Part shown: positions 16,001-45,718 of the stretch, one piece after another
Layout: each line of letters begins with the position of its first letter
How positions within the stretch are numbered: the stretch's first letter is position 1
Origin: Pomacea canaliculata
Lineage: Eukaryota; Mollusca; Gastropoda; Architaenioglossa; Ampullariidae
Length of the DNA: 64,000 bases
NCBI RefSeq assembly: GCF_003073045.1
Contig: NC_037593.1
Coordinates: 18,280,725 to 18,344,724, forward strand
Direction of reading: 5' to 3'
Notes under the pieces: model-generated
Databases searched by the model: none
What the model was told of the DNA's origin: nothing
What the model saw: only the letters and a program-made list of their open reading frames with translations
Program-made: the position numbers and the translations under genes

Positions 16001-18355
16001 GGCCTTACAGCATCTTGGGGAAGAGTGGGGGGGGATTAACTGATTAGAAGAAAATGCAATCACTAACATTTCACACACAATAACTGAAAGGTTATATGAG
16101 TACTTACACCTTTTAATAGCTAGTAGGTTGTAGTACCTTTACTTTTTCAAATGGAAAGATACAAATCAAAACAAGAAATATAAACCTTGTTGCGATTTTT
16201 TTCTTTCAAAAAGGGTCTCAGCATTTTAAAGATGGCCTCAATATACCACGGCTGGTTGACAAAATGAATAGCAGTAAACCTTGCAGGAAAGCAGTCCTGA
16301 AATAAATGTATACCAGCTCAGTTAAAAAAAATTGTTCTTAAAACTTTGAGTACATTTCTTCAAAAGAAAAAAACTTGAATTTTCTAAATACAAAAAAAGC
16401 AGTAAATGACATAACCACCCTACTGAGGATATGATTTATTACAGGTTTGCAAAACCTAACCTCTAAAACTTCTTCTGTAAGTTTTATTTTTCAACAGTGT
16501 TATTTTGTAGTAAACATTCAATGAGAAGGGAAAGATGTTTGGTACTGGACCACAAAAAGTAACTGGAAAAGTGAACTTCTACAAAACCCTTGTACCACAC
16601 TGTCTCTGAAGCTCACAAAATTCATAAACAGAAAAAGTCATATACTTTTTGCAGAATGTTTGTTCAGCGTTCAGCTCTATGACTTTGCTTAAACTGTCTC
16701 CAAACACGACAATAAATTTTTCAATTCTCCACATAGAAGCAATAGTTAATGCTTTCTAAAAATTTTAGAGGCTTTTGTGATATTGAATGCAGAGTAGTCA
16801 GAATTTTTTTAATTACCTGAAGAAAAATATACGCAACCATTCACAGCTATGCATACACACTAATACACCTAGATTCCTTACCTGTAAACCTTCAATCATG
16901 AGTTTTAAAATTCGAGGGTTCAGCCATGATGACTGCTTGAAAGTGAATTCACTCCAATCAACAATCACAAGAAATCCATTGATCTGTGTTGACTCATCGT
17001 CAATAAGTTTCTCGAGTGTCAGCAAAATTGCACGATATATTGCTGCCAGTCCATAGCGAGTATTGTCCCAGTTTGCAGAATACAAGACAATAATTCGACG
17101 TCCTCGATGATCTGTTCCTGGTAAAACACCAGGCAAACCATCTAAAAGAGCATCTTTGATTCCTGGCTCTGAAGCCTGAAATTTTTTGAAGAGATTCTTG
17201 TTTGTTTGACGATATTCAAAATAACGTGCAAAAAGTCGAAATGCCTCCTCAGAATTAAACTTACGAGCTCGAAGAAAACGCAGTAGGAAAGCATCATCAG
17301 AGCGCAAGAATTCTGCACAAACATTTTTTTTAAATATATAAAAACATGTACATCAAATGTTGTTGAAAGATGTTGAAATGTTAAGGCCTAAAATGGCTAT
17401 TTAAAATGAGATGCATACATGCTAAATAAAGCTTAAAAAGATTTCGTGTATCTCAAACAAATCATGAAAAAGAAGATTTAGAAGAATTCATGTTGTATTT
17501 TTTTCCTGAGTATCTCCTCACTCAAACTGTGCTCATGAGGCCAGTGAAGAGTCATAAAATCATGTCTTTCAAGTACTATGAGTATGAGATGATGAAAATA
17601 ACAAATGAAATTACAAATTTAAATAATAAAGCATGCAGCCATAAACAGTCCTATGGCTAGCTATGCCTTTACATTTTACACCAAAAAAATGAAACATAGT
17701 AAAAATGTTTACCACTTAAACAGAGAAAAGGCTTTTTTAAATCCAAGGAACATACTTTTAAAACAATAGAAATAAAACATTGTATCAGACTTCAATATTA
17801 AGATGGCTTATATTAAGGAAGCCAACATACAAATAGTATGTTGCACATAAAAGTGAAGCACGTTTTAAACATGTCCATTAGTGGGTTTACAGATGGTTTT
17901 CTTTCACTGACATCAATAGGTTAAAATTGTATACTTCAATATTTATACAAAATAAAACATGATATGCAATACAATTAGCCTTGGGTCTTTACTTCATCAT
18001 ATTGACAGATATTGTATCAGTGAACGAAAGATGGTATGTTGACTTCCTAGCAATAGAATGCCAAAAATACACAGGGTCTCCTGGTGAAGGACATGGATTC
18101 CATATGCTTTCTATGGGACCTATATGTTTTTGGCATTCTGTGCTGCTATGGCTTTAATTAAAAGTTAGAGCCAGTGTGTCAATATTACAATGGAATATCA
18201 ACAAAAGGAGATATTCACTTACCAATGTCTGGTCTTGAAGCCATCTGAGATCGAACTGCTGCTAGTGCAGCAGGCATGTTTTCAGGAATTTCATTCAGTT
18301 CTGCTCGAGCTCTAGCAGCAAGTGGTTCTGCAATTCCCCAGCCATATTCTGCCAT
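13085..18355 (-). CDS. CLVS: Clavesin-like CRAL-TRIO lipid-binding protein
   Basis: Five coding exons in gene order, 18355-18223, 17312-16882, 16296-16186, 14760-14570 and 13196-13085, join in phase into 325 residues, close to vertebrate clavesins. Residues about 30-90 form the CRAL-TRIO N-terminal helical part ([18 protein letters not shown], ending YFEYRQTN). The lipid-binding CRAL-TRIO fold follows, with [66 protein letters not shown] and LPAELGG. The C-terminus ends DEEFFLID, an acidic/hydrophobic tail like that of clavesins. Family role: binds PtdIns(3,5)P2 on clathrin-coated vesicles and controls endosome/lysosome morphology in neurons. The ATG at 18355 (MAEYGWG) was chosen because the upstream frame is a CA-rich repeat and an AG acceptor sits just before it, so an untranslated 5' exon is likely. 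The tail exon matters: reading on at 14568 meets a stop, but a good GTAAGG donor there joins to the 13196 exon. Confidence 0.5.
13270..13870 (-). mobile_element. 5' end of an RTE-like LINE inside a clavesin intron
   Basis: On the minus strand the segment begins with a leader containing GGGCTAACAACCCGCTTATG, an A-run and CTGTTACAGAAACT, followed by a degraded start of the endonuclease domain ([30 protein letters not shown]). These are the signature blocks of the apurinic endonuclease of RTE-type LINEs. The same leader and domain start occur at 63541-64000, so both are copies of one family. This copy has several stops and frame changes and is cut off after about 60 residues, in the reverse of the usual 5' truncation. 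Confidence 0.5.
14340..14378. repeat. C-rich simple repeat (CCACC/CACCC) in clavesin intron
   Basis: A run of CCACCCC-type units in the last long intron of the clavesin-like gene. Only low-complexity sequence is seen; no regulatory claim is made. Confidence 0.5.
18048..18148. mobile_element. Hairpin (MITE-like) element in clavesin intron 1
   Basis: The left arm TAGCAATAGAATGCCAAAAA and the right arm TTTTTGGCATTCTGTGCTGC, followed by TA, are imperfect inverted complements around a 50-bp centre. The outer ends are TA, as for a Tc1/mariner-type target, but no longer duplication is clear. It has no coding capacity and lies in the first coding intron. Confidence 0.5.
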
Positions 18356-19895: not shown

Positions 19896-22412
19896 GGACC
19901 AAGCTATAGAAATTAATGCTCTAGCCATAAGAAGACTGTAATTGATTCTGTTTTTCTCTTCTCACTAACGAGCTGAGAAAGGATTTACACAGGTATCCAA
20001 AAGAGCATTGAACTGTAAGGTATTCGAGTTTACTTACCAAACTTGTTATTTACAAGCAGAGCACGTGTATGCAGAGATATTTCAAACATGGTAGATTGAT
20101 ACCTCCATTTGTTCATATTTAATGTCCCCTAGACCGATGGTAATCGGGTAGGAGTACTGATCAACTCCCAGGGGCCATTACTAAGGCAATAGTAAGTCTT
20201 TTCCCCAGGGCAAAATGGGGAACTCAAAGCGTTTTATTTTTGTAATTACAATGTGATGCTACACCCCTGGGACACTATTTTATATTTCTGTACCCCAGTT
20301 CATCTTTGCCACCGATTTGTAACTAAGGGCAATATAACATCTGTGGGTCTGAAAGTCACTTTATGTAACTTTGGAAACAAAAAGACGCTTGTCCCTGAGT
20401 TCTCCATGTTGCCCAGGGCAACAACTTACCCTCGTTTCATGACTACGGACCTAGGAAAAATAGTACAAATTTTATTATGTATTTATTTTGTGAACGTTAG
20501 ACAAGCGCCTGCCAGACTGCGACGCACGTGTTTCCACGTGATCTGTTTACTCTATACGTGATCGTTATTTGCACAATACTTTTCATATAAAGTAACTAAC
20601 AACAATGTGACTATAATTATGAAGGGAGCGCAGGGCAGGACACAAGTATAGATAAATACACATGCAATAGCCACCATCACAGAATACAGGAGGAATGATA
20701 GAACACATTTAGTGTTAGTTACATAGTAATTAACTCGGTAAGTATATCATTATTGGCAGATAATCGAGTCTCAAATTTAATACCGCACATGTCATTCCCA
20801 TTATGACAATAGAGTAATGCTCGGGTGGGGGAGGGCTATTTGGAACGGTGATTTAATAATTAAAAGAACTCGATCTTTATTAATTTTTCATTAATAAGAA
20901 AGAGTAGGTTCAATCTGTAAGTGTCGTTTACCTGCGCATTTTTAAAAATTATTTTTTCTGCTTGATGACGTCTAAGAATACTAAAAAACAAAACTTTTAA
21001 TACCAGCAGGCTGCCGGGTACTGACCTCTTGAAATGCTAGATTATCTAAAACTGCTGATGTAACAAAAGATACAGGTGACAGAACAACAAGCCTTCATGG
21101 CACTACAGTCGACAGATCATCCGATATAACAAAAGCAGCTTGCTTCTGAACTAGACGAGACCCCTAAGTTATTTTTTCCCCTTGGTGTGCGGATGTTGAG
21201 AATGCAGAATTGCCTTTACATCGTGTTTTTACATAATGAGACAGAATTTATAGGCACTTTGCATTTGCGAGATTTGCTCAGAGATAGTGGGCGCCGTGTG
21301 ATGGTTTGATAAACCTTTTCAAATCTCTTTATCAGCAGGGAATAAAAAGATACTTAATTAGCATTCCTCTCTCTCTCTCTTCCCTTGAAACAAAGATTAG
21401 ACGAAGAACTAGAAATGATAGTGGATGAATAGGTGTACGTTTTTATTCTCTCTCGAAAATTGGGGCTAACGGGAATTGATCTGTGAAGATGTGGAGGTGA
21501 ATGTGTTTAAGGAAGGCAGAGACAGAATGATGGGTCAGGGTGGGTATAGGGGTGGGAGGGAAGTACAAGGTATAGGGTGTGCAAGTGGATGGGACAACTT
21601 ACACTCTTTTTCTAATATGTCTCTTTTGTATAATTATATTATACTTCGGCAGCTTTTTAATGAATGTCATAGCATATTACAGCAGATTTTCTGGTTCCGA
21701 GAAAAGTGAGATTTCTAACACCTCACTCCCTAACAACCTCAAAAGGGCATGGGACGACCTTTACTTTTACCTTAAATTACAACAATACAAATAACAGAGT
21801 GAAAGAGAAAGATATGCACGACCTCTCTTTTCGTCTCCTTTCCTTCGTTTTTCTACAGATCTTGTAAGAATAATCAAATGATGGAAATCCTAATGGAAAT
21901 CTGTCAATTCTTTCATATGGCGATTTCAAAGTTCGGTTTCAGTTGTGATAAGACCCCTTCAGATGGGGCTGTAGTTGTTTGAATGTCTGCAACAAATATT
22001 ATCTTTAACCATGTGAAAAGTTGCCCAGCAACTTTCTCTTTCTCGCTTTGTGCGAGATGTAACTTGTAGTAAAATCGCCTGTCAAGTCTTACAGATAGAG
22101 AAGTTACGAAGAAGCTGGAACAGGTGAGACAAAGGTAAAGAGGAGACCGGCACAGTCACTGTCCAACGTCTTCACGTGAACGAAGGCAGGTGTCTGAGTG
22201 TCGCCCGACTCAGTATCAGTGAACATGCTGTGTGTCGTGTAGCAGCCAATAGGATGGCAGCTTTCGTCATCCATCAATCTTTTGAAAAGCCAATGGGGTA
22301 AACGTTTATCTATTATTAGCTTGATTTACACGATTCCTCCCCTACAGCCCGCCCCCTTTCCCCAATCCCACCTACCCTGACTCGTTAGCATTCTCATCAC
22401 GTGCATATCAGG
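19896..22412. other. Intergenic, no gene seen
   Basis: An open frame of about 100 codons at 20253-20561 has no recognisable domain, signal or splice partner. The part at 20150-20450 contains CCCAGGGGCCATTAC and CCCAGGGCAACAACT blocks that look like old repeat sequence. A CT microsatellite lies at 21366-21381. The last 200 bases should hold the lectin promoter. Confidence 0.5.
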
Positions 22413-22418
22413 TATAAA
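22413..22418 (+). promoter_or_regulatory. TATA box of the H-type lectin gene
   Basis: TATAAA lies 108 bases upstream of the ATG at 22521. A start site near 22440 would give an 80-base leader with no upstream ATG in frame. Confidence 0.5.
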
Positions 22419-22520
22419 TGTTGCGGTCCCCAGACAGTGTAAGTCGTGGCTAACGAGATCGCTGAAAGCATCTACTGCATCTCCACCAGCGACCTGACAA
22501 CCATCTTCGACCTGACCAAC

Positions 22521-24831
22521 ATGAAAGTTCTCGTTATCGCTGTTTTGGTGGCGGTAGCATCTGGAGGGTATGCTAGAAGAGTGAGGACATTTGGAAGACG
22601 TGACAGTCCCGTTAGGTACGGAGCAGGACAAACCTTCAAAGATGTAGTAGAGCTCTTGGAGGGTAAGTATACAAACAAATATAAAGTGATGTTGTATTTC
22701 AAGCAAGTTTAAAGTCGCTTGTTTTTGTTTGATCTGAAAACAAAATCGCACTAGAGAGAAAATATTAGTTTTGTCTTGTAACGCTATGAGCGATGAGTAC
22801 GAAAAATTTGGCAAATAAAATGGCCGCAGTCTTTAGCCAACATAACACAGCATGTTCGTGCGAACAATAGACGGAAAATGTGTGTGTGTGTGCGTGTGTG
22901 CGTGTGTTGCCTGTATGTATGTGTGTATGTGTCCTTCTATCGATGGACTCGTCTTCTTTGTCCCACCCACCTATCCACCCCACTGAGTTTCTTGTTTGTA
23001 GAAAGTTAATTCCTTTTAGCCAATAAAATTATTAGCTGTTGTTATCGTCTCCTAATAACACTCAGCTTACCTCAATTTTCTGTATCAAGAGTTGACTCGA
23101 GTCAAACAGGACCTGTACGAGGGCTTGGGTTCCTACGGAACTAATCTGAGGGTCAGCGAACAAAAGATTAACCGCATTTACCAGCGCGACATCCCAAGCA
23201 TCGTCCTCTCCAATAAACAGCAGGACGGGCTCATCACTCTGGCCAATGGGGAGGTAAGCTCCTAAGCTCGCTTACTACTCACCATTTCCAGTTTTATTTT
23301 CCTAACTTCCTCTCTACATTTTTCGTGTTCCACTCTCCCTCCCCGTTGTACAACAGTGTGGTTTTCTCTGTCACAGATCGACGACCTGTTAGCACAAGTC
23401 CGTTCCGCGCAAGACACAGCTGCGGCGACCCTGGTGACAGCAACTGAAACCTCCAACATCACGGAGGTCCTGGAGCAACAAGTATACGGCATCGCCTCCT
23501 GGAATGCAGAGCAAAGAGCCACCATCGACGGCATCAACATAACGGAGGTTACACAAGTCTTGCTGCAAGAGCTGAAGGACAGCATCTATCGTCTGAGGAC
23601 AACCCTGGCTGGCCTGGAAACCAGGACAAACACCGTTGATGTCTTCGTGCAAAGCAGACGATGTAAGTACAGGTGATCCTCACACAGAGAATTACTTGGA
23701 CGACAGTGTTAGCACACTGCGAACACCTCAGACACCCGAGCATAGGTGTTTGCAGTCTGTGAAAGACACTTAGGTATGAGACTGACCTACATGTACACTG
23801 CACTTTTTTCACCTGCATCCATGCTTTCACGAGTCCATCTTACACAAAAACATGAGCAAGTCTCTCATTTTATGATTTTGTCTTATCACCACCTTAGCTT
23901 TGTTCGGGAAATCTTTCGGTCTTCATTCTGCGTGTCTTTTAGAATGAACACTTCTTTGCTCTGTTAGGATCTGTGTGTGTGTGTGTGAAAACGAGTTAAC
24001 ATGCCATCTAGAATTAACAGTAGCTTTGGGGTTTGAGATAGGTTTAGGGTTAGGATTTAGGTTTGGGTTAGGGTTAGAATCAAGATTAAGATTTTCATGT
24101 AGGCTGTTATTTGGCATAGAATGATGGCCTGCATAAAACGATGGAAGTCAAAGGTTTGTTTGTCAGTATAAAAATAAATTCGTGGATAGGACGGAGGCAT
24201 AAGCTAACTGCCGCTAGCTATCTTTTCTATCTATACCACTACAGCTGAAGGTCTTGAGTATTGCAACGAAATGATGTTTATTCTCAATGTTGATTGTCTT
24301 ATTTCTGCAGGCGAGACCGGCTCTGTCCAGGTGTTTTTTGAATACGACAAAGACGAAGTAACAGTCCCCCAGACCTTCCTGTCAGCGTTTGACGAGAACC
24401 CAGAAGTCACCATTTCTCTGGACGGCTTCGCCGACAGTATCGATGACAAAGGCGAGTATCAGAAAAATAGGTACGACAACGATGGCAAAAACAACTACGA
24501 CAACAACTACGGCAAAAACAACTACAAGGATGGCAAAATCAACTACGACAACAACTACGGCAAAAACAACTACGACAACAACTACGGCAAAAACAACTAC
24601 GACAACAACTACGGCAAAAACAACTTCGACAAGGATGGCAAAATCAAGAACGACGTCCGATACAACGAGAAAGATGAGCTGGGCATCCGGGTGTCGGCGG
24701 AGCAGATAACCACCAGTGGATTCAACGCTCGCTTTAAAGGTTTCAGCGAAGGTCGTTTCGAGAACAGAGTAGCCACTGCCCGCTGGACGGCCTGCCAGAA
24801 CCTCAGCGTACGTCCACCTAGGAACGCTTAG
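22521..24831 (+). CDS. Secreted coiled-coil H-type lectin with repeat-interrupted lectin domain
   Basis: Four exons, 22521-22662, 23090-23253, 23377-23662 and 24311-24831, join in phase into 370 residues. The ATG at 22521 starts a clear signal peptide (MKVLVIAVLVAVASGGYARR). Residues about 48-197 are helical/coiled coil with Asn-linked sites (NIT twice). Residue 198, a Cys made across the last junction, opens the H-type lectin domain: CETGSVQVFFEYDK, VTVPQTFLSAFDENPEVTIS, then after an insertion IRVSAEQITTSGFNARFKGF and VATARWTACQ. This follows the strand order of Helix pomatia agglutinin. Residues about 245-320 are an extra low-complexity block of YDNNYGKNN and KDGKINYDN units between the strands. 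Family role: trimeric or hexameric GalNAc-type sugar binding in snail albumen-gland fluid and innate defence. The Trp-His pair of the known sugar site appears as Phe-Ser, so specificity may differ. The gene looks intact, with polyadenylation signal 25207-25212. Confidence 0.5.
22879..22934 (+). repeat. TG/TATG microsatellite in lectin intron 1
   Basis: Alternating TGTGTGTG and GTATGTATGTGTG units inside the first intron of the lectin gene. Nothing else is visible in this intron. Confidence 0.5.
24029..24086 (+). repeat. Telomere-like GGTTAG/TTAGGG degenerate repeat
   Basis: Within lectin intron 3, units such as GGTTTAGGGTTAGGATTTAG and GGGTTAGGGTTAGAATC follow one another. They resemble TTAGGG telomeric repeats with interruptions. 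A short interstitial tract is the simplest reading. Confidence 0.5.
24466..24660 (+). repeat. In-frame 27-bp/21-bp coding tandem repeat
   Basis: Four near-identical 27-bp units encode YDNNYGKNN. They are interspersed with 21-bp relatives encoding versions of (Y/F)(K/D)KDGKI. All units preserve the reading frame. The array lies within the last lectin exon and accounts for the whole extra block in the lectin domain. Confidence 0.5.
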
Positions 24832-25206
24832 TTTCATTGAATTAATCGTTCTTTGTGGATTCCCTCCGAGCTTTGGACACTGGCCTGATATATATATACT
24901 TAGTATGTAGTGAAATTACAATAACGCCACGACTTCTTGATTTTGGAAAAATAAATCAAGAACTAAAAAGCAAAAGATGCTAGTCGGTGGCTGTATCTTA
25001 AAGGATTGCGGTGTGTGCGCATTTTGTACATAGACTGAAGAACGTATTTATTCGCATTTCTCTCGCTGTACAGGCAGTACTATTATTCTTGAACATCGTC
25101 CTGTAAGACGGTGCTTTCATTCAAGTGTAAATCACGATGTCCAATATGTCTTCGCCTATTATGCTGTCAATTGTTTCTGATTTGTCCAAGAGATGCAAAA
25201 GGTGTA

Positions 25207-25212
25207 AATAAA
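25207..25212 (+). terminator. Polyadenylation signal of the lectin gene
   Basis: AATAAA about 375 bases after the lectin stop codon, the first well-placed signal downstream of the last exon. Confidence 0.5.
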
Positions 25213-27326
25213 AACATGAGCTGATGCCTTTCTCAGTGTTATAACTGTTATATGTGAGCGGTTGTGGCTCATTTATTTACTTCAAGATTATGGTATAATG
25301 CTGAGGTATAAGAACAAATGAATACGAGCTAACAGAGGGTGATTTAAGAACACAGACAAGAACTCCTGCTGGCTGCATAATACTACAAAGCTTCCGGTTT
25401 AGTCATATTCTTTTTTCTTTTTCTTCTGATCCTTTTTTTCGTTTTGTCTTTGTCTTTTGTTTTTGTTGTTTGTTTGTTTTTTTTTCGTTTGTTTTTTTTT
25501 TTTTTTGTTTTGTTTTTGTTTCGCTAAAACAAGATAGGCATTATCATCTCAGCTAAGAAAAGACGAAAAGCTGGTTGACAGCTTGGCTGGCTTACTAACC
25601 TATTGGTTGGCTACTTTTGATTGAAATGTCTTCTATGAGTGATTTTTACGGTGGAGAAGCAGTTTCAATGAATGACACAATCATCAAGCTTTTCTTCATC
25701 AAACATCGTTACCTTTTCTGGAAAGGAGGAAGGTGCCTGGTCACCTGATTGACAGAGATGACGACCGCTCATCCCGCCCACCCCCTCAACAAATAAACCA
25801 ACATCTCAAACAGTGCAGGCATCCATCCACAAGTACACGCTGTTCAAAATAAAGAAAGTAATCTTTAACGGGTTTACAATGTTTTATCACAGAAGTCGCC
25901 GTGTAATGAAACATTTAAGAAACAGTGTACAACAACAAGAAAATAGAATGAAACAACTTCAGAGTTAATATTGCATGGCGGCCCACTGGGCCAAAGAGCA
26001 TAATATTGTTGTGGTTACTTGTATGAAACAGTTGAATACTGATATAGGATAGGACAATGTACCACAGGGTTTGGTGGAATTTTATAGACACCAGGCTGGG
26101 CTTTAAATTGCCTTATTTCTTCACCAAGTGCATTCTTTTGAGCAGAAAGCTGAACTGCCAGCAGAGTCTGACCATTCTAAAAATTTGCAAAAAAGTTACC
26201 AATGTTCACCGGCAGATGTGACATTGGAAAAGGGAAAGTACTTGTCAAATGAAATGATATCCGCATCATAAACCATCTCATGTACTTGACTCGGCAGAAG
26301 CGTGTTTTATAACAAATGTTTGCATCGTCTTCGTCTTGGATTACTACATTCGTCAAAACAAAACAAAATAAAAAAAAAAAATCACATGAGTGTGTGTGTG
26401 TGTGTTTTCAATTTTCAATCTATGGATGACTGCACATGCGCATGTGTACAAACATGCACAACGACTTTCTGGAGGAAGATTTAACATCAACAGCATAATA
26501 TACGAACATACATATCTCTACAGGATTGCAGTCATGCTCACACATAAGAAGTTGTTTTGTCAGAGGCGAGAATTAGTGTTAACCGATACATAATGTATAC
26601 TCGTATATTTTTCATTTGATCTGTTATAAAGCTGCAATAGCTGTCTTCAAAATATATTTTAATTCGAATAACGGAAGTACTTTTTAAACACAAACACACC
26701 ACTGGCAACCTTGCCATTAGTCCAAGTGCGCTCTTCGTTTCGAAAACTTTTAATACTTTTGGTTAAGCGGATTGAGCCCGATTTCTCAAAGTTGTTTATT
26801 TGTTTAAAAATATCGAGACCACTCGACACGAAAGTGGACGGAACATCTTAATATTAACGACATCGAGAGGGTTTGATCACAGGAAGTCACAAATATGAAA
26901 ATAAACCTTTTTGTATACAAAATGTTACAAATATGCCATTCATAATAATGCTGTTTGAAAGATTGTTAAAATGAATGTGTTTTTTTTTAATTTTTAAATA
27001 TTTAAACGTTTTTGGCGGTGGTTTAATCAACTATTTCATTTGTCATAGCCGATCTTTAATTCAAGATCAGTATGATCCCAGTCATTCATTAGCTCGAGAA
27101 ACATTTCTTCAACTGCTATGAATTTTAAACTGTTATTTACATATTTCTAGCAGAGTAACCCTGTTATCTGCTTCTCCTTTCTCCCCCTCCCTCAATCTTT
27201 GAAACCTTCCGAGCTGATGTAAAAAGTGTGACAAAGGTTAATTAAGTACAAAATAAATGATAGTATACAGAGCATGGGAATGTCTCGCTGCATGTGTAAT
27301 GCAGATGACTTCTCAATGCCCGCAGG
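25213..27326. other. Intergenic, no gene seen
   Basis: A T-rich tract with TTTG units at 25410-25520 and a TG run at 26391-26406 are the only repeats noted. Short open frames here have no domain or splice support. Confidence 0.5.
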
Positions 27327-30300
27327 TCAGTTGGCCTGTTCCTGTATTCCCAAGCTGCGGACGCACTCGTTGACCGCACGTCGCGAGCCAGGTGTGTTCT
27401 GCAGGTAGGCCAGGTAGGTGGACGTCATGTGCTGCCGGCTGCCAGGTGGCACCTGGTCGATCTTGTCAAGGTCCAGACGATAGAAATCCTGTCGTGTGCG
27501 TTTGTAATCAGCCTCCACCTTCTGCTGAGCCTGAGAGCTGTACTTGGTCTTGAGCTCCTTCCTGCAGCAACAATGGGACAAGGTAAGGTGTGGATCATCG
27601 TCATTCTCGTCGTCGTCATCATCATCTGCACTCATTTTTCTTTTAGCTTTCTAACGAATGTTTAGGTTTTTTTTCTATCCAAGGGACCGGCACACACCCA
27701 CCTTAGCATGGGGACGTCACTGTAGTACAGCTGTCGTGTAGCGAGGTCTTTGGTTTCCAAGGTGACGATGGGAAACAGTGGCATCCGCTCATCGTCCTCT
27801 TTCCGCTCCTGCTTGTTTTTGTGCTCGTGTTGCTTGTGACCATGGTGTTTAGAACTGAGGGCAGAATAATGAGAAGTAAAGCAATCAAAGGCGGTGTGGC
27901 TCGCTGTTTCAAAGATGTGAGATTCGAAAATGTGCCGTTGCTAGGATACAGGTAGATGTGCTTCCCATTGTGTGTGTGTGTAAAAGAGAGAGACATTTAA
28001 AAAACCGGATTTTCTGTAGATTGTTTACCTCTTTTTGTGTTCGTGGATGGTGGTGTGCTGTGGGGAGATGGCCGGCAGGACGTCCTTATCCATGCAAAGG
28101 TCAACCCAAGGGTCACACAGGCCCTGTGCAGTGCGGCGGCTGGTGTGACCCATGAAGTGACCGTCACGCTGCAACATGGCGAATGTTAGCTTGAGATCAT
28201 CTTGTGTCATCTTGGATTGTCCCCGGTTGCAGCATATTGTTTCGTGAGTTACTTTACACAAGCAGTGGTGTCAACACCACAAACACAGAAAAAGGCAGGA
28301 GACGAGAAGACACATGTTCTGACAGAAATAAATTCATCCCCGAAAACAAATCGAGAGTCGCTAAGAGTGAGTGAGTAGATGGAGGCTCTTACGTAAACCT
28401 CACTTAAATGTTTCTGACAACACAAAATCAACACGGTGGAAACCATACAACAACATCGATAAAATACACTGACATATTAGTAGACATGATTTATATAGCT
28501 AGTGGTCTAGCGGTACTAAGAGTGTAAAACTATGATTAGAACTGGACACTATTACCTACCACATATCAACATTACTTCACAGAAGAGAATTATACTCTGT
28601 ATCCAGACAGAAACAGAAGGCAGGCAAGATAGATGGATAGGCAAATTTATACCTCTAGAACCGCAAGAAAAAAAAGTAAACAAGCTTTCGAAACTTATTT
28701 CTCCTTCACTAGTTATTGCCTGACTCGGTGTAAACTCACCAAGTTGATGAGAAAGCGAGGGGTGTGAGTGTCGTAGTATGGAGCCAAGGAGTTGAAAATG
28801 AACGGTGTGTTCTTCTTCCTGGCGAAAATCAAAATACGTTGAACAATATTTATGTTCACTCACTACTTACATGAAGTTTTCAGATCACACAGAGCAGGTG
28901 CTTTGTCAGGAATAGGGAGGTGTGTTGAGCAAATGTACATTGAGCATCAGAAAATTATAACAGCACATCGACAACCATATTCAGCACTTATTCCTTCTCT
29001 CCATCGACATATTTGTTATAAAATCTTGTAAAATACAATTAACAAAATAGAATAGTTTTTGTCAGAGACAAACCCTTTACGACTGAAATTTTGGAACAAA
29101 TGATATTTCTTTGCAGACTTTGCTTGTTGTCCCCATGAAGCGTCAATTACCTTGTTTTGGTAAACAACGGACAGACAACACAAACACATAGAGACAGAAC
29201 ACGAGACAATAAAGACAGACAGACCCAGGCTATGAACAGCTAAAAGTAGACAGACGACAGTGAAAACAATAATAAGCGAATTTTCACAAAATGTTTCAAG
29301 TTTTTGTCAGACGAAGAATATCAACATTCCTCTTACCTGGGAGGAGGAACTATTTTGGAAGACTCTTTTTTCAAGCTGTCCTCCAACCTCTTGAGCTCCT
29401 CCTTAAAGAACTCTCGCTGTCTGGCACGCCCGTCGGAGGTCTCTAGCAACAGAGATCACACGCACATCCAGGCTTTTACAAAAGTCAGTTAAAAACCAGT
29501 TCTGAAACAGTCCCCGCAAACATTACATTACCCATCGCTCATTACTTCACTAAGAAATGAAGCAGTTATTGCACCCTGCGACTTCTGCTCCGACTATTGT
29601 CACGACTACAGCTGTCGTTACAACAATAATGTGACTGCAAATGAGGACGAACGTTAGACTAACATGAGAACGAACGTTAGGCTAACATTAAAACGAACGT
29701 TAGGCTAACATTAAAACGAACGTTAGGCTAACATTAAGTCAAACGTTAGGCTAACATGAGAACGAACGTAAGGCTAACATGAGAACGAACGTTAGACTAA
29801 CATTAAAACGAACGTTAGGCTAACATTAAAACGAACGTTAGACTAACATTAAAACGAACGTTAGGCTAACATTAAAACGAACGTTAGACTAACATTAAAA
29901 CGAACGTTAGGCTAACATTAAAACGAACGTTAGGCTAACATTAAAACGAACGTTAGACTAACATGAGAACGAACGTTAGACTAACATTAAAACCAACGTT
30001 AGGCTAACACGAGAACGAACGTTAGACTAACATTAAAACGAACGTTAGACTAACATTAAAACGAACGTTAGACTAACATTAAAACGAACGTTAGACTAAC
30101 ATTAAAACGAACGTTAGACTAACATTAAAACGAACGTTAGACTAACATTAAAACGAACGTTAGACTAACATTAAAACCAACGTTAGGCTAACATTAAAAC
30201 GAACGTTAGACTAACATTAAAACGAACGTTAGACTAACATTAAAACCAACGTTAGGCTAACACGAGAACGAACGTTAGGCTAACACGAGAACGAACGTTA

Positions 30301-33300
30301 GGCTAACACGAGAACGAACGTTAGGCTAACAAATGAGAACAAAAGTTAGGCTAACAAAACAAGTGGTTAGAGCGGTGATCAGGACTTAACATTCATTGCT
30401 CGATAATCTGCCTTGGGTTTCGGAACTGTAACTCACGGAGGGAAAAAGCACGTGCAACTGTAAGATGTATGATGTACCCGTCAATTGACGTCAACGCGCT
30501 CGCTTGTGTACTCCTGCTGCTGTTGAAACATTCTCTTGAGTACATCAATACACTGCTGTGAGTAGGTTGGCTCACGTCCATACACAGTCTATACATTCCA
30601 CTACCTAGTGGAGGTCGAACCACGTCTACTCACATCCACACACTTTTAAGTAATGCAGGAAGGAAGGAAATGCTGGCAATCAGTAGCCAGTGCGCATGCA
30701 CCCTTTACCCGATCTTCTCCGATCTTACCCGATCTTGCTTGGGGTGTTTTAGTCTCATCACTGGAGTCTCCGAGCTCGCTTCCTTTGCCTTTTGTCGATT
30801 TTGTTCCTGTGGTAAGACAGTGAAATGTCCTGCATCAAAGTGGGTTTATCACATTTTCCGCATGCAGAACATTTTTCACTGTCCGTTTGACCTCCATGGA
30901 AAGAGAAAAAGGAGAAGAATGGTGAGATTGGTGACTACATGGTGTCAGCAACCAGGTGGGCATTGAACTCGCTCCTTTTTGAATGGTAGGGTGTGAAAAC
31001 GAGGCTAAACGTGGTGCACAAGGGTCATTCTGTCAGGCTTTTAATACTTTACCTATGAAATAATGGTCAGTGCTTGAAATGAGTGCTGGTCTTTGACCTA
31101 CAATGTTCCCACATCACAGACAAATGTAATAAGTAAATGGCTGTTGTTTCCGAGTTTGTGCCAGTAGCAATCCACGCCTACAGGAATCACAGATCTGAAT
31201 GTTTACTTCAAACAGAAAAGAACTGCAGAAGTGTGGACGGAAAGTTACTCAATTTAAACATTATTAAAAAAACAATACTGCGTTTTATAATTTAAAGGAA
31301 TTCTGCTAAGAGACAAAACCACATGGAAAGTTGTATTTTTTTTAAAGTTTATATTCAGCTCTTCTGGCTGCGAGTGCGCTTGCAAACATCCCATACACTC
31401 TTTAGAAATCAGATTTTTCTCCCTCCAAACAGGGAGCACTTAAGTGTCCTGCCAGCAATATTAGCTGAAGACACGATCTTATAAAGGTAAAGTGTTTGCG
31501 AGAGTTTATCTTAAGTGAACTCTGACACAAAAAAGAATTTTTGTGAGGAATGGCAAAGCCTCCAACCTGTCCACAGAGTCACTAAGCTCGATTCTTGTCT
31601 TTCTCTCTCCTCTTGATGGCGGATTTGTTATCGTCCTTTTTTTATAAGCAGTAAAGGAGACGAGAGTTTTATGTGTTGCAGGTGACAGGTGACTTAGATG
31701 TCTCCTTTACTTTGATTCTGAGTGAGATTACACAGCAGTAGTTTCTTTATCTACCTGCCAGCCCTGGCCTGTTGGGACACGATCCTCTACATATTCGTCC
31801 ACATACAAATCAGGTCCACAAATACCACCTCTACCCCATCGCACTCCACGATATTTTATGAATAGAAGGGATATAAAAGGATTATTAATATGAGTTTTGT
31901 TCGTGAATAGCCAGCAGAGCGGGTGGTTAAACTGTAATATAAACAACCCGCGGCGGGTGGTATCATCAGTAATGATGTCTGGTTGCTCGTACAATCCCGG
32001 ATTTGGCGGATATTTTTTCGGATATTTACGAGTACTAAGGTGACATCGTATGAAAAGCTGATCGTGACACGAGTCACACACCGACTGAAACCCTTTTCAA
32101 GATCGTAGTCGGAAAGAACGTGCAAAGATGGCAGCCTGTCCAATATTTTGCAACAGAGCAATTGTTATGACTTCGTTTTGTAATTTTTCTTCGTGAACCA
32201 GTTGAAGAAAAAAATGATTATTCAGATAATCATTTCTTCAATTAATTTTATTAAATGATATGTTATAGTGTGGGTGTGAGATACAGATGGTGATCGTCTT
32301 CATTATTACAGATCGTCTTCATTATTTTCAAGATGAGGATAATTTAAAATTTTATCTCCTTGTAATTGTAGGGAGAAGGGAGAAGAGTGGTTTAGTATCA
32401 AGGGGTTGGTTTATTCAAGAAGGATAGATAATCTCTTCCATCGCCTTTCATTTATTATTCAGGGACTTATTCACTGCTGACTGAACAGGAAGTCAAGCGC
32501 ACTAACCATGAAACCATGAATCATTGACACAATCTGTGCTGCTGTTAGGAAATTCTAGCTTTTACTGATACAACATTTACTGCAAGGAAGGCAGTCAATC
32601 CTCTCTTGACACAATATTTAAAAAGTTATTGTAATCGCAGCAGTTGAACCTTTGTTGCAATCTTTACTGCTATCATAACAGTTCCTTCTACTCTCAGTCC
32701 ATAGCAATTTATTTTCAAAGAGGTCTGATCATATATCTCGGGATGTCGTAAAGCGAGACAAATGATATCTCAAATCCTGAAAGGAGTCTTTGAACACGTT
32801 TAAGATAGCAAAAAATAAGTAAATTTATAAATATATCTTTAAAAATTATGAATTGACCTGCATGCAAAGGTCACCAGTATTTTTTTTCTTTTTTTGCTTG
32901 TTTGCTTTGAATGGCAATCGCAGTCACCTGACAGACAGGACGGGCGGCAAGTGTAGGTTGTGCGAGGTCGTCGCAATCGGCACGATGATTGGCTCTGGAC
33001 ATGCGCTGGTCCGTGATCAGTAACGCTTCTGCTGATTGGTCGACTGGCCTCTCTCTTGTGGAGACGACGAGTCGTCTGGGGCGTAGTATCTGTTGCTGCT
33101 GGGCTCGTCTTGGGCCGCGAGTTCTCCGTTGTTGATGATGTTGTCGTGTCTACGTCAGTCACCACAGAACTAGGTGCGAGGTGTTGGGATCTGGTGCTGC
33201 TGGTGGAGTTCGTGGGATCCTGTCGTCTTCTGACGGTGGGCTCGTCTCTTTGCCTTCGTCCTGACGGGGATCTCTTTGGAACTTTTTCGCGAGACCGTAC

Positions 33301-36300
33301 ATGCCTTTGTGCAAATTTCGTGTCTGAAGACCGTCCAGAGGATGCGACTCTGTCATTTTCAACTGAACACTGTTTCTGTGGCTCGGAACTAACCTGTGAT
33401 ACCTCAAGGGTGACCAGGTTTTCTGTCTCAGCCTTCGAATTTACCACCAAACCTTCTGACTGCAAGTCTCCATCAATGTTCCCCTCGTCCAGTTTCTGCT
33501 CATCCTTTAGTCGCTCTTCATCACAAGACTCGGCCGTCTCTTGTTCTCGCTGTATGTCATGGCCCTGATCTTCATCAGATTGAGTGGGATTCGCGAGTTC
33601 ATCCTCTTTCTTACCTTCAGTGTCGTGTTCCCCAATTCCCTGAACCTCCATGTTATCCTCCCCACACGTCTCTCTCAAAGGTGATTGCTGGCTGCCCTCA
33701 TTCTCAGTGCTTGATGCTAGGCATTCTTGTCCTTCGGCTGGTAGCGACTGTGATATCCCTTCACAGTTCTCTTCCATTTTGTCCTCCAAGTAGCTTTCTT
33801 GGTTTTCCTGCGTTGGAGAGGCCTCAGGCAACGCCTCATTCTGGCACTCTTCACCAACCATTCGCTCGGTCTCGTCTGGTTCAGGGTAGGAATCACCAGA
33901 TCCAGGTGTTGGTTCGGTGACTGTCTCACTTTCATAAATGTTTTGTGATTCTTCACACTGGAGTTTATTGTCTGTCTGCAGTGCCTCATTGTTTCTCTCT
34001 TGGATGTCTGCTGCATCCAACCCTTCAGACGACTGAACTTCGTTGGCAGAAACTCCCTGACCTCTGTTATCTTGCTCTACTTCCTTCTCTTCTGCGATCC
34101 CTGCGGAAACGCCTTCATCGTCTGCTTCTTGAAGTCTGCTCATGCCTTCTTGGCTTGAGCTGTCAACGACCCCTTCCCCTGTCTCTTCGTCAAAGATGGA
34201 CTGAGTGCCCAACTCTGGCGCATTAACTTCAGATGATTCTTCTACACAAATGTCTTCTCGAAGGCTTTCTGCTTCTTCTTGAAGAACTTCGGCTTTGTCG
34301 CCATCGTTGAAGTTTTCTGTCTGTACATCATTATCTTCTTCCTGGTTAGTTGGTATTTGCTCTTCTTGGTGAGGTTCTAATTGGATTTGGGCATTATCCT
34401 CTTCTTTGTGGGGTTCTGGCTGTATTTCGGCATTATCCTCTTCTTGATGGGTTTCTAATTGAATTTCGGCATTTTTGTCTTCTTCTTGAGGTTCTTCTGC
34501 ATTTATTTCGGCATTATCCTCTTCTTGATGTAATTCTGCCTGTATTTCGGCATTATCCTCTTCTTGTTGAGGTTCTTCGACCTGCATTTCGGCATTATCC
34601 TCTTTTTGTTGAGGTTTTTCTGCCTGTATTTCGGCATTATCCTCTTCTTGATGGGTTTCTAATTGGATTTCGGCATTGTTTTCTTCTTGTTGAGGTTCTT
34701 CTGCCTGAATTTCGGCATTATCCTCTTCTTGATGATTTTCTAATTGGATTTGGGAATTATCCTCTCCTTGGTGGGGTTCTGCCTGTATTTCGGCATTATT
34801 CTCTTCTTGTTGGGGTTCTTCTGCCTGTATTTCGGCATTATTCTCTTCTTGATTGGATTCTTCCTGCATATCTTCATTATTCTCTTCTTGTTGGGTTTCT
34901 TCTGCCTGTATTTCGGCATTGTTTTCTTCTTGATGGGGTTCTTCTCCCTGTATTTCGGCGTTATCCTCTTCTTGTTGGGGTTCTTCTGCCTGTATTTCGG
35001 CATTATCCTCTACTTCTTGAGGTTCTTCTCCCTGTATCTCGGCATTATCCTCTTCTTGATGGGGTTCTTCTCCCTGTATTTCGGCATTATCTTCTTCTTG
35101 ATGGGGTTCTAATTGGATTTCGGCATTAACCTCTTCTTGGTGGGATTCCTCCTGTATTTCGGCATTATTCTCTTCTTGTTGAGGTTCTTCTGCCTGTATT
35201 TCTGCATTATCCTCTTCTTTTTGAGTTTCTTCCTGTATTTCGGCATTATCCTTTTCTTGATGGGTTTCTGATTCCATTTCGGCATTCTCCTCTTCCTGGC
35301 GGGGTTCTGCATGTATTTCGGCATTATCGTCTTCTTTGTTAGGTTCTGGCTGTATTTCAGTATTATCCTCTTCTTGATAAGTTTCTAAGTGGATCTTGGC
35401 ATTATTCTCTACTTGGTGTGGTTCCTCTTCCTTGGGTCCTTCTATTAGGACGCTATCGTCCTGAACTCTCTCTGACTGAGTGTCCTTGTCTGTCTCACCA
35501 TCACCAGTCTCCTCCTCTTGGTGTGGCTCCTCTTGGTGTGCCTCAGAAGGAACGTCACTAGTCTCCTCCTCTTGGTGTGCCTCAGAAGGAACGTCACTAG
35601 TCTCCTCCTCTTGGTGTGCCTCAGAAGGAACGTCACCAGTCTCCTCCTCTTGGTGTGGCTCCTCTTGGTGTATCTCAGAAGGAACGTCACTAGTCTCCTC
35701 CTCTTGGTGTGTCTCAGAAGGAATGTCACCAGTCTCCTCCTTTTGGTGTGCCTCCTCTTGGTGTGTCTCAGAAGGAATGTCACCAGTCTCCTCCTCTTGG
35801 TGTGCCTCAGAAGGAATGTCACCAGTCTCCTCCTCTTGGTGTGTCTCAGAAGGAATGTCACCAGTCTCCTCCTTTTGGTGTGCCTCCTCTTGGTGTGTCT
35901 CAGAAGGAATGTCACCAGTCTCCTCCTCTTGGTGTGTCTCAGAAGGAACGTCACTAGTCTCCTCCTCTTGGTGTGTCTCAGAAGGAATGTCACCAGTCTC
36001 CTCCTTTTGGTGTGCCTCCTCTTGGTGTGTCTCAGAAGGAATGTCAGCAGTCTCCTCCTTTTGGTGTGCCTCCTCTTGGTGTGTCTCAGAAGGAATGTCA
36101 CCAGTCTCCTCCTCTTGGTGTGTCTCAGAAGGAACGTCACTAGTCTCCTCCTCTTGGTGTGTCTCAGAAGGAATGTCACCAGTCTCCTCCTTTTGGTGTG
36201 CCTCCTCTTGGTGTGTCTCAGAAGGAATGTCACCAGTCTCCTCCTCTTGGTGTGTCTCAGAAGGAATGTCAGCAGTCTCCTCCTTTTGGTGTGCCTCCTC

Positions 36301-39046
36301 TTGGTGTGTCTCAGAAGGAATGTCACCAGTCTCTCCTCTTGGTGTGTCTCAGAAGGAATGTCACCAGTCTCCTCCTCTTGGTGTGTCTCAGAAGGAATGT
36401 CACCAGTCTCCTCCTCTTGGTGTGTCTCAGAAGGAATGTCAGCAGTCTCCTCCTTTTGGTGTGCCTCCTCTTGGTGTGTCTCAGAAGGAATGTCACCAGT
36501 CTCCTCCTTTTGGTGTGCCTCCTCTTGGTGTGTCTCAGAAGGAATGTCACCAGTCTCCTCCTCTTGGTGTGTCTCAGAAGGAATGTCACCAGTCTCCTCC
36601 TCTTGGTGTGTCTCAGAAGGAATGTCACCAGTCTCCTCCTCTTGGTGTGTCTCAGAAGGAATGTCACCAGTCTCCTCCTTTTGGTGTGTCTCAGAAGGAA
36701 TGTCACCAGTCTCCTCCTCTTGGTGTGGCTCCTTTTGGTGTGTCTCAGAAGGAACGTCACCAGTCTCCTCGTCTGGGTGTAATTCTGCTTGTTCGTCGTG
36801 AAAACCGTCGCCGTGATGAGTTTCTCTCGACACTTTATCAACATTGTCTGGATGGTCGGATGTCTGGCCATCTTCTTGCACGAGTAGTTCACCTGCTACG
36901 TCTTGCCCTGCCTCACCTGACTCCTCGCCGTCTGCACCTGAACCGTCGGCATCAACAGCTTTCCTTTGGTCAGAAGTGGAAGATGCCTTATCTGCTTCAT
37001 CATCGATGTTCATGTCATTCGACAGCGGGTCTCCATTTGTATTGTCCACACCATCTAACAAGTGCGCTAGATCGGTAGATGAACGTTCTTGAGAGGCTTC
37101 TGCCGCTGGTTCTGCTGAAACAGGTGAGCAGGTTGTGGGGTTTTTTCTTTTCTTAGTTACAGGATGAGGGTTTGTTGACATCATCAGGAGCAAACAAGGG
37201 GTGAGTGCACTCAGCGTAATGCTTACTTTCCACGTGTAATCAGAGTGCAAATCGCGGTGAGCAGTCCAACCAAGACAACAAAAGAAATGAAGTGCGAGCG
37301 GTCGTGGGCTGCTGACAACGTTCACCGTGCATGCTGTGAGGTGCGAAGCTCTCTACACTACCATGCAAAGGTCACATCGGGGTCAAGGAGGTCACCGCAC
37401 TCCACTCACAAATGAACGCTCATGCAACTGTTGGTGAACAACTCTAGCGTTTTGGCCAGAATAGCCAGTATACTCAACCTGTTCTCCAACCATTCATAAT
37501 TTAAACCCTTCATAACATTTTTATAAATTTTACTCTGTTCTTTTGTCTTTGTCAGTCTGTACCTCTGACAAATATTTCATATACGTTTTTCAGTCTTTTT
37601 GTTTGTAGAGAAGTAAAGACCCTTTGAACACCAAAAGGTCATGCAACAAAACAGTTACGAGTATGTTTGATCATGATACATATTACTGAATTATACTTCG
37701 TGGGACGCATTAGACTGCCGGCCTGTCTCTGTTCGTTCCCTGGTACACGTGCACACACGCATAAAAGCAGTGAACAACACCAAGAGACCATTAGGTGAAA
37801 AAAACAATACAACACTTGTATCTGCTTGAACCAAAAATTAAGCCAACGTGACCTGTAAATGGCAACTGGGACAAACCCATGACAACTAGTGATAAATACA
37901 AAGTAACTACACGATGACATCAACTGAGGGAAGAAGTCAGGACTGACATGCCATTTTCGTGCAATTCTCGTGTAAATGAAAAAACTCATTTCAAGGGACT
38001 GCAGACGAGCTATGCATGAGTGAGTACTGAGTTGTTCTTGAAAAAAGAAAACTCAGGTGCTTCATCATTTAGTGTTATCGACGTGCGCAGTCTACAGGCT
38101 GTCTTCTACTTCTTGCTTACAGACAGCAGCTAGTCATTGGCATTACACACCTACTAGACTGTATTGTAACATCAACTAGTCTGTGTTATAACACCAGCTA
38201 GACTGCATTACACACCTACTAGACTGTATTATAACATCAACTAGTCTGTATTATATCAACTAGTCTGTCTTATAACACCAACTAGACTGCATTACACACC
38301 AGCTAGACATGTTACTAGTCTGCATTACACACCAGCTAGACGTCGGGCAACAACCACAAACAACAAAACCAAGCCATGCATTTTTTGTGAAGCAGTTTTC
38401 AAGACTAAAAGCACCACGAAGACAAAGTAATATAAAATATAGATTGTTGATTAGTGTCCTGTCACTTAGCTCTTTAAATATGTCTGCATATAACATTCTG
38501 CTATTAAAATAGTTTAAACAATAAGAGTAATGCTTTTTAAAACCATGGATGGAATGCATACAAACATGAATAAAAGTCTGTTTTTATTCCTACAGACAAT
38601 GCAAACCTGTTAATTGTAGCTTAGATAACAAAATACATAACACTAACATTGACATGATCATGATAACTGACTACTTGTGTTTTCAAAATTAACTGATTTA
38701 AATAAAATAAGTTTCAGATTATGTTTTAAGTCGGAATCTCAAGAAATCTTTACGATTCATGTAATATGACTAAAGCTAGAGCTGTTGGCAGGGTTAGGCT
38801 GAAAACTAATAAATAATTACCTGAGAGAAGGGGGCAATGCCCGCTACAGACTGAAAATAAAAAAATACACAAAACATGATTCACTCCAACGGTGTGTTTA
38901 CGTGACTGACCTTTGTCCTTGTCCTTGTCCTTGTCCTCGGTTCCCGCAGTTTTTTCTCCCTTTGGATCCTCTTTCGGGGAGTCGTCACCCTGATTGTCTT
39001 CCGCTTCCTGAACACAGTCAGACCGTGAAAACATCAGGCCATCCAT
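27327..39046 (-). CDS. Uncharacterised Lys/Asp-rich protein (282-residue short form)
   Basis: Six exons in gene order, 39046-38911, 29442-29337, 28818-28740, 28168-28029, 27854-27702 and 27561-27327, all bounded by GT-AG, join without a frame break into exactly 283 codons including the stop. The first exon is acidic/basic and ends in Lys-Asp repeats (EDKDKDKDK). Exon 2 is a charged helix (REFFKEELKRLEDSLKKE). The middle reads FNSLAPYYDTHTPRFLINL, then GHTSRRTAQGLCDPWVDLC. A His/Lys-rich linker (KHHGHKQHEHKNK) is followed by a C-terminal helical part, KVEADYKRTRQDFYRLDLDK and AYLQNTPGSRRAVNECV. No signal peptide or membrane segment is seen. I do not recognise the family. The conserved-looking middle and C-terminal parts argue for a real intracellular protein. 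The link between exon 1 and exon 2 spans 9.5 kb and rests on phase and splice sites only; the giant exon at 32928-37114 may be included in longer transcripts. Confidence 0.5.
29642..30355. repeat. 23-bp tandem (minisatellite) array, about 31 copies
   Basis: The consensus unit is ACGAACGTTAGRCTAAC followed by a six-base spacer (ATTAAA, ATGAGA or ACGAGA). GTTAG-R-CTAAC inside each unit is a perfect odd palindrome and AACGTT a second one. Units with A or G at the variable position are arranged in blocks, suggesting recent local amplification. The array lies upstream of exon 2 of the uncharacterised minus-strand gene, inside its long intron. Confidence 0.5.
30356..32927. other. Intron/intergenic DNA, one doubtful minus-strand open frame
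   Basis: Mostly AT-rich. On the minus strand, 32081-31728 stays open for 117 codons, with an acceptor-like TTTCAG just upstream. It reads KYRGVRWGRGGICGPDLYVD near its end. I recognise no family and see no downstream donor that joins it to the neighbouring exons, so it is not called as a gene. Confidence 0.5.
32928..37114 (-). CDS. Giant glutamate-rich repeat exon (about 1,395 codons)
   Basis: On the minus strand an acceptor (TTTCAG before 37114) and a donor (CTGTCAG/GTGACT at 32928) bound 4,187 bases that read almost entirely as one acidic protein. The segments in order are a Ser/Asp/Gly-rich head (about 37114-36790), array B of THQEEETGDIPSE units and array A of EEPQQEEDNAEIQ units. A non-repeat acidic part (34340-33450) is followed by a Ser/Arg/Thr-rich basic tail (REKVPKRSPSGRRQRDEP) ending CRPSCLS. 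Both borders are phase 1 and match exon 1 (39046-38911) and exon 2 (29442) of the flanking gene, so it could be a cassette exon. Alternatively it is a separate gene starting at ATG 37184 (MMSTNPHPVTKKRKN). One repeat unit near 36331 is a base short and shifts the frame; without that loss the exon fits perfectly. No known domain is seen; the function is unknown. Confidence 0.5.
34345..35435 (-). repeat. Coding tandem array A, EEPQQEEDNAEIQ-type units
   Basis: About 25 diverged units of 36-42 bp encode variants of (T/P)(H/Q)QEE(D/N)NAEIQ(A/L/G)EE. The reading frame stays open through all units. Divergence between units is much greater than in the neighbouring array B, so this array is older or evolves under less homogenisation. 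Confidence 0.5.
35505..36775 (-). repeat. Coding tandem array B, THQEEETGDIPSE units of 39 and 54 bp
   Basis: Nearly identical 39-bp units alternate irregularly with 54-bp units that carry an extra AHQKE block. Differences are mostly single substitutions (GDIPSE/SDVPSE, GD/AD). One unit starting at about 36321 has 38 bp. The high similarity points to recent expansion by unequal exchange or slippage. Confidence 0.5.
37185..38910. other. Intron DNA with a short degenerate repeat
   Basis: No coding frame is supported. On the minus strand 37190-37325 stays open upstream of the ATG at 37184, but it contains no convincing start. The only structured sequence is the CTAGTCTG/CTAGACTG repeat at 38150-38345. 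Confidence 0.5.
38150..38345. repeat. Degenerate tandem repeat with alternating CTAGACTG / CTAGTCTG
   Basis: Short units such as ACCTACTAGACTGTATTATA and ACATCAACTAGTCTG repeat about eight times with variable spacing. ACTAGT is itself palindromic, so the tract could form small cruciforms. It lies in the long first intron of the uncharacterised minus-strand gene. Confidence 0.5.
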
Positions 39047-44206: not shown

Positions 44207-45718
44207 CAGTCACGTCCAAGCACAAACCAAACAAAACGACATGCATTACTCTTCATCTTTAATTTCACAAGAGCATGGCATGAGGAATGTAACTTTCTCC
44301 TTCTGTCGTAGTTACCTCCTCTGATGCTACAGTCTTTCATTTCTGCTAGATAGAGAGAGTTCTCTCCCCTTCTTCCTTTTTGAGGGGTGGGGTGGGGGTA
44401 TGGGTCTGACACGGGAACGAACCAAAGACATTCTTCTTCAAAATCGACATTAACTCGACATTTATTAATTAATTTATTTAATGTTTATGTCTTCGCTATT
44501 AATTTATAAATTTGAGTGGCATTTATTCGATCTTAATATAATTGTTTAATTATTTGACAGTAAGCTTATATAATAATCATATAAAATAATTATATAAAAC
44601 AAAACATAAAATGTACAGGTAAGCTGACATAAACACGTTTTTTCTCTCGGTATAACCACTCACCACTCACCCTGTCACACGCGCGCGCATGCGCTGTCAA
44701 GCATACACGCTCACACACGTATAACACAGTCTCCCTATCCACATTCAGCCACACTTCTAACAATCTCTTTGTACCAATTAATTTGGAGACCAAAGCGAGC
44801 CAGATGTCAGGATGTACAAATGATAGATTTCCAGCTGATGCTCATTCAAGTGTGTACAGAGTTAAATCTCGGTAAAAGATTGGTCAAGAATGTCTTTCTT
44901 TGGGTCCAGTCGATGTTTCAGCTCCTCCTTCTCCACTGAAAGGGGGGAAAACACTCATTTAAACAGAAAAGAGAAACGTTGAAACAAGTTTTTCTGAGGG
45001 TCCTGGCAGTGGTTAAATATTCAGTCAGGTGTTTGTGTGTGTGTATGTGTGTGTGAGAGAGAGAGAAAAAAAAAATTTGTTTAAGCTAGATTTCATTTAC
45101 AACTCTTGGCTTAGGTCCCAGTAAGACCCACAAGGCATGTTAGCTGTCATGAAAGCCAGTCCCGCGGATTTTATGTTCACCATTTTACCCGACAATAACT
45201 AACTGTTTCTGTAAAGTTCAAGAAACGCAACCGATATACTGTAATCTGGGGAATCGCTATTAGTGCGCATGACCAGAAGACGCTAACCTGACTTCCGGAA
45301 ACACAAAAAGATCATGACCAGACAGAAGAAGAGGCGAACGAGAAGGAAGAGAGAAAAAGACAACAATGAACAGGACGAAGAGCCAGGGACAGATAATCCT
45401 TACGGAAGTAAGCCTGACGAGGGAAGTTGTAGTGGACCATGAGGAAGATGACGACCCCAACGATGATCAGCACAAGGATGCCAAAGACGATACCCAGCCA
45501 CCACAGATTGAATGCTGCCTGCTGCACGGGCTCTGCCTCTGGGGGAAGGAAATCCAAAGCATATATTTCTTGGTAAAAGCTTATTTTTAGAATAGTATGT
45601 GACAATATTTGTAAATTATTTACGAGTCAGACTGTCCGGAAAAGTTATTTATTTAGCAAAGACATTTGCGCGGACACACATACACACGCACGTATAAAAT
45701 ACAAAGGGTGTATGCATA
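44207..45718. repeat. Source copy of a segmental duplication (partner 62256-63531)
   Basis: From CACAGTCACGTCCAAGCACA to the GTGTATGCAT block, this interval is collinear with 62256-63531 at high identity, in the same orientation. It covers the 3' untranslated region, the tail exon and the membrane-helix exon of the Ig gene. An AT-rich block of about 200 bases (about 44404-44615) is present here and absent from the partner. Confidence 0.5.

Follow-up and report, generated by a model that had tools for sequence, protein, structure and literature searches.

The H-type lectin fold is a six-stranded beta-sandwich. Among proteins of known structure, the H_lectin domain of the gene described here is shared with the Helix pomatia agglutinin (HPA; 2ccv, 2cgy and 2ce6) and the Helix aspersa agglutinin (4q56), and the galactose-binding lectin 3wmp and the H-type domains of discoidin (2w94, 2vm9) are relatives of HPA, whose ligand-binding residues have been characterised (PMC11377244). 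Five genes with H-type lectin domains are reported for Aplysia (PMC9334734) and 12 H-type lectin transcripts for Arion (PMC4795696), while the HREPs are summarised as combining Ig-like and H-type lectin domains (PMC8878817). In the summaries of the work on Aplysia, Arion and other lophotrochozoan H-type lectins, which we compared by description only, no domain split by a repeat is mentioned, nor was a repeat-split H-type lectin found in the titles and abstract openings among the literature matches listed.

The window analysed here, a stretch of 64,000 nucleotides taken as a whole, contains a gene whose predicted product is, as far as its sequence tells, a divergent member of the H-type lectin family. 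This protein and HPA have strands that can be aligned, and they share a Gly-Phe pair and a Trp in the last strand. It differs from HPA in a 68-residue repeat array that occupies one loop, in leaving 13 or 15 residues of the HPA N-terminal loop unmatched (depending on which of two alignments is used, with residues 20-26 unmatched in both), in keeping none of the three HPA cysteine positions, and in a long N-terminal helical stretch that the 101-residue HPA chains do not have. The lectin protein can also be aligned with the 3wmp fragment, over the same strands, but the fragment has the short loop LDVDNSNN in place of the array. In contrast to the HREPs, which by their summary carry an Ig-like domain, no Ig-like domain was found in the lectin protein among Pfam matches up to E 10.

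Gene model and predicted protein

The gene model spans 22521-24831 on the forward strand, and its four exons, joined across three GT/AG introns with the frame kept, encode 370 residues (Table 1). As the initial annotation had it, the array lies in frame within one exon; exon 4 is open to its stop, in agreement with the gene model. The N terminus, MKVLVIAVLVAVASGGYA, is signal-peptide-like as judged by eye, and the gene product is probably secreted. The hydropathy of residues 36-195 has a helical periodicity (shuffle p 0.0055 at 3.5 residues and 0.0005 at 3.6, nine periods having been tried), and on this ground we call that part of the protein a putative stalk. The "secreted oligomer" of the initial annotation is consistent with the signal-like start and the helical stretch, and the protein is probably oligomeric, a view that also draws on analogy. 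Two cysteines (198, 359) and three N-glycosylation sequons (129, 156, 361) are present. A tblastn search for paralogues in the window, with the whole protein and E up to 1, returned only the gene's own locus, in three stretches.

Table 1. Coordinates of the lectin gene, its repeat array and flanking sequence motifs in the window.
Feature	Position	Strand	Remarks
TATAAA, possible TATA box	22413..22418	+	108 bases 5' of ATG; pattern match within 22200-22521
Exon 1	22521..22662	+	ATG, residues 1-47 and first base of codon 48; GT donor, gene model
Exon 2	23090..23253	+	helical stretch begins; AG acceptor, GT donor, in frame
Exon 3	23377..23662	+	remainder of helical stretch; AG acceptor, GT donor, in frame
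Exon 4	24311..24831	+	H_lectin domain (PF09458) with repeat array, and stop; AG acceptor, open to stop
Repeat array, residues 245-312	24451..24654	+	Asn/Tyr/Lys/Asp/Gly-rich, 68 residues
Exact 27-base unit 1 (YDNNYGKNN, residue 260)	24496..24522	+	
Exact 27-base units 2-4 (residues 276, 285, 294)	24544..24624	+	contiguous
AATAAA, possible poly(A) signal	24950..24955	+	another at 25207; pattern match within 24832-25400

Domain identity

The unaltered 370-residue protein matches PF09458 (H_lectin) with 25.5 bits (E 1.5e-5; curated cut-off 24), the best stretch being residues 316-358, C-terminal to the array; two further Pfam matches (E 0.14 and 0.37) are under their own cut-offs. Once the array is removed, the score becomes 30.5 bits (E 4e-7) and the alignment covers profile positions 2-66 of 67; HPA itself scores 66.6 bits. 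As controls we used nine composites in which the first half of the domain was shuffled, and all nine scored 20.2-23.7 bits, with alignments that start at profile positions 14-28 and never before 14. Because the controls reach only these values against 30.5 bits, the first half contributes about 9 bits when in its correct place, and because the match extends over profile positions 2-66 whereas the controls score lower and start later, we take both halves to be one H_lectin domain.

These results bear out the initial annotation in its central claim, that an H-type lectin domain is split by an in-frame repeat, and the profile search of the two halves, whose failure it would have counted as a refutation, yields a joint match. 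Its statement that the fold is recognisable on both sides holds for the two sides taken together and not for each one singly: scanned alone, the part N-terminal to the array has no match in Pfam, and the part C-terminal to it reaches 21.4 bits, below the cut-off of 24, and the pairwise score against HPA is at chance level, with 224 of 2,000 shuffles equally good. A search of PDB chains with the full protein gave a single insignificant match, to a tyrosyl-tRNA synthetase (E 1.9) and within the stalk, and the domain minus the array gave none. The single-sequence AlphaFold2 model of exon 4 (residues 199-370) has a pLDDT of 31.8, with values under 50 at all 172 residues, and lends the domain assignment no support. 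Further afield, the HPA/3wmp alignment as query produced 53 pattern matches in prokaryote contigs and 65 in viral contigs, none of which was confirmed in either set, and HPA as query had no match in phages.

The repeat array

The four YDNNYGKNN units and their KDGK relatives were described correctly from the start. The four units are the same in 27 of 27 bases; a seven-residue unit follows the first of them, diverged units lie at either edge of the array, and two units, the one at residue 269 and the final one, contain the KDGK relatives. Tandem Repeats Finder reports 24476-24632 (period 27, score 230) and 24476-24654 (period 48, score 239). When the residues of the 68-residue insert were shuffled 5,000 times, no 9-mer ever recurred, as against the four copies observed, and all seven Gly-Lys pairs of the array are written with the same codons. 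The insert had been put at 76 residues, which is close to the total excess over the H_lectin family of about 78; this total adds to the 68 residues of the array as bounded here about 10 extra loop residues, seen when the protein with the array removed places 75 residues on 65 profile positions.

Of the 68 residues, 22 are Asn, 11 Tyr, 11 Lys, 10 Asp and 8 Gly. This hydrophilic composition (GRAVY -2.5), with a charge near neutral (12 K+R vs 11 D+E), suggests that the array is disordered, and the "flexible" spacer of the initial annotation is consistent with the same figures. No known repeat family was recovered for the array, either among Pfam families up to E 10 or among PDB chains up to E 1. 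Other open frames run across the array on both strands, and were set aside as a likely by-product of repeat composition.

Repetitive DNA also occurs elsewhere in the window. At 32842-37352 on the reverse strand, overlapping open frames of 1169 and 635 codons encode a Glu-rich repeat protein with SETHQEEETGDIP-type units, and the DNA beneath them has repeats with periods of 39-132. The 635-codon frame scores 27.9 against the Pfam family Atadenovirus Fibre_HD (cut-off 26), with no single stretch passing, which is probably a low-complexity effect. At 29647-30356, a satellite-like array repeats a unit of 23 bp 30.8 times, with 92% matches.

Position of the array and ligand-site residues

In the alignment with HPA and 3wmp, the array sits between two HPA strands, of which one ends near residue 51 and the other begins near residue 62. 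Arg63, Trp83, His84 and Tyr89 of HPA, which we take to be its GalNAc-binding residues, are faced by Gly, Phe, Ser and Glu respectively; an Arg is found two residues beyond the Gly, and matching it with Arg63 would require a two-residue gap. The Phe-Ser that had been noted in place of Trp-His does stand opposite Trp83-His84, but in a different loop from the array, and not in the array loop to which it had been assigned. With different residues at the positions of Trp83, His84 and Tyr89, and with no clear conservation of Arg63, HPA-like GalNAc binding by the lectin protein is doubtful, and a different ligand, or no ligand, is possible.

Origin and possible role of the array

The open gene model, the joint domain match from both sides, the position of the array and the base identity of its four units are the observations from which we argue. 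On balance we favour, with moderate confidence, an intact gene for a stalked H-type lectin in which a minisatellite within a loop has expanded recently, the resulting arm being tolerated as a passive or weakly selected spacer. According to this proposal, the 27-bp minisatellite would have grown in frame in the loop that precedes the strand with the position of HPA Arg63. Since the middle units are identical and the edge units diverged, the expansion would have proceeded by replication slippage or unequal exchange, and was probably recent; alternatively, gene conversion could keep the units identical. The product would be a long hydrophilic Asn/Tyr-rich arm, probably disordered, near the presumed sugar site, and we propose that the beta-sandwich may tolerate it in a surface loop because that loop is anchored at both ends. 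The likeliest role for such an arm would be that of a spacer, passive or under weak selection, next to the presumed ligand site. If it is neutral, the arm provides a gauge of the insertion size that this fold tolerates.

A selected functional arm is a rather less likely explanation. The array would in that case act as a Tyr/Asn-rich sticker, whose tyrosines may be modified or cross-linked, and would bind the lectin into mucus, glue, the egg coat or the shell matrix. Tyrosine is indeed enriched, with 11 of 68 residues in the array against nine of 302 in the rest of the protein, and the summaries of several reports place other H-lectins among the raised adhesion-related genes of the semislug foot (PMC11178922), in snail mucus (PMC10475054), in a snail shell proteome (PMC6368272) and in the perivitelline fluid of Helix (PMC4795696). 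An adhesive or matrix role is possible because of this composition and of the places where other H-lectins were reported. However, the cited reports are on other proteins, and the mucus in which H-type lectins were found is of the protective, not the adhesive, kind (PMC10475054). Should selection keep the arm, a compact lectin domain would have acquired an element for spacing or matrix binding through the growth of a repeat within one of its loops and not through the shuffling of domains, and the number of repeats would offer a natural dose series. A further step, which we regard as improbable, would be a length-tunable Tyr/Asn-rich arm beside the ligand site: the number of repeats would differ from individual to individual or from species to species, and would determine how far a secreted oligomer reaches, how it cross-links or which sugar it prefers.

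We attach an equally small probability to the array being missing from the real protein, or altered in it, through an assembly error in the identical copies or through splicing out. Identical tandem copies are prone to assembly error, and in-frame GT-AG pairs that span the array do exist, but the frame is unbroken across array and domain. Among the pairs listed, read by eye, the acceptors at 24633-24678, which would spare most of the second half of the domain, are without a pyrimidine tract, and the more pyrimidine-rich acceptor at 24746 would delete a conserved strand as well; a cryptic intron spanning the array was judged unlikely from the quality of these acceptors. Least probable is that the array serves as a degenerate DxDG-type calcium-binding repeat: it has two D-x-D-G motifs, a number that 74 of 10,000 shuffles reach, but both are in edge units, may be mutual copies and are absent from the four exact units, three DG pairs arise in 882 of 10,000 shuffles, the array matches no Pfam family or PDB chain, and the strict EF-hand loop pattern of 13 residues has no match in the whole lectin protein.

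Other features of the window

A possible second secreted protein is encoded at 1-1643 on the reverse strand and extends beyond the window edge; it has a signal-like start, a Pro-rich and then a Tyr/Gly/Asp-containing stretch, and helical-looking exons, and a Pfam scan of its open frames at 337-702 and 1314-1841 (E up to 0.01) gave no match. Ig-like matches at 45648-46139 and 49339-49689 on the reverse strand, all below the curated cut-offs, are perhaps exons of one gene. Together with the CRAL-TRIO match given below and the introns, they are in keeping with an animal genome, though they do not point to a gastropod in particular. Two adjoining frames at 56363-57793 on the forward strand match TNP-like transposase domains above the cut-off, one with 104.1 and the other with 38.8 bits; they are parted by a stop, and probably represent a decayed transposon. 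At 16816-17352 on the reverse strand, the N-terminal part and the core of a CRAL-TRIO domain are matched above cut-off.
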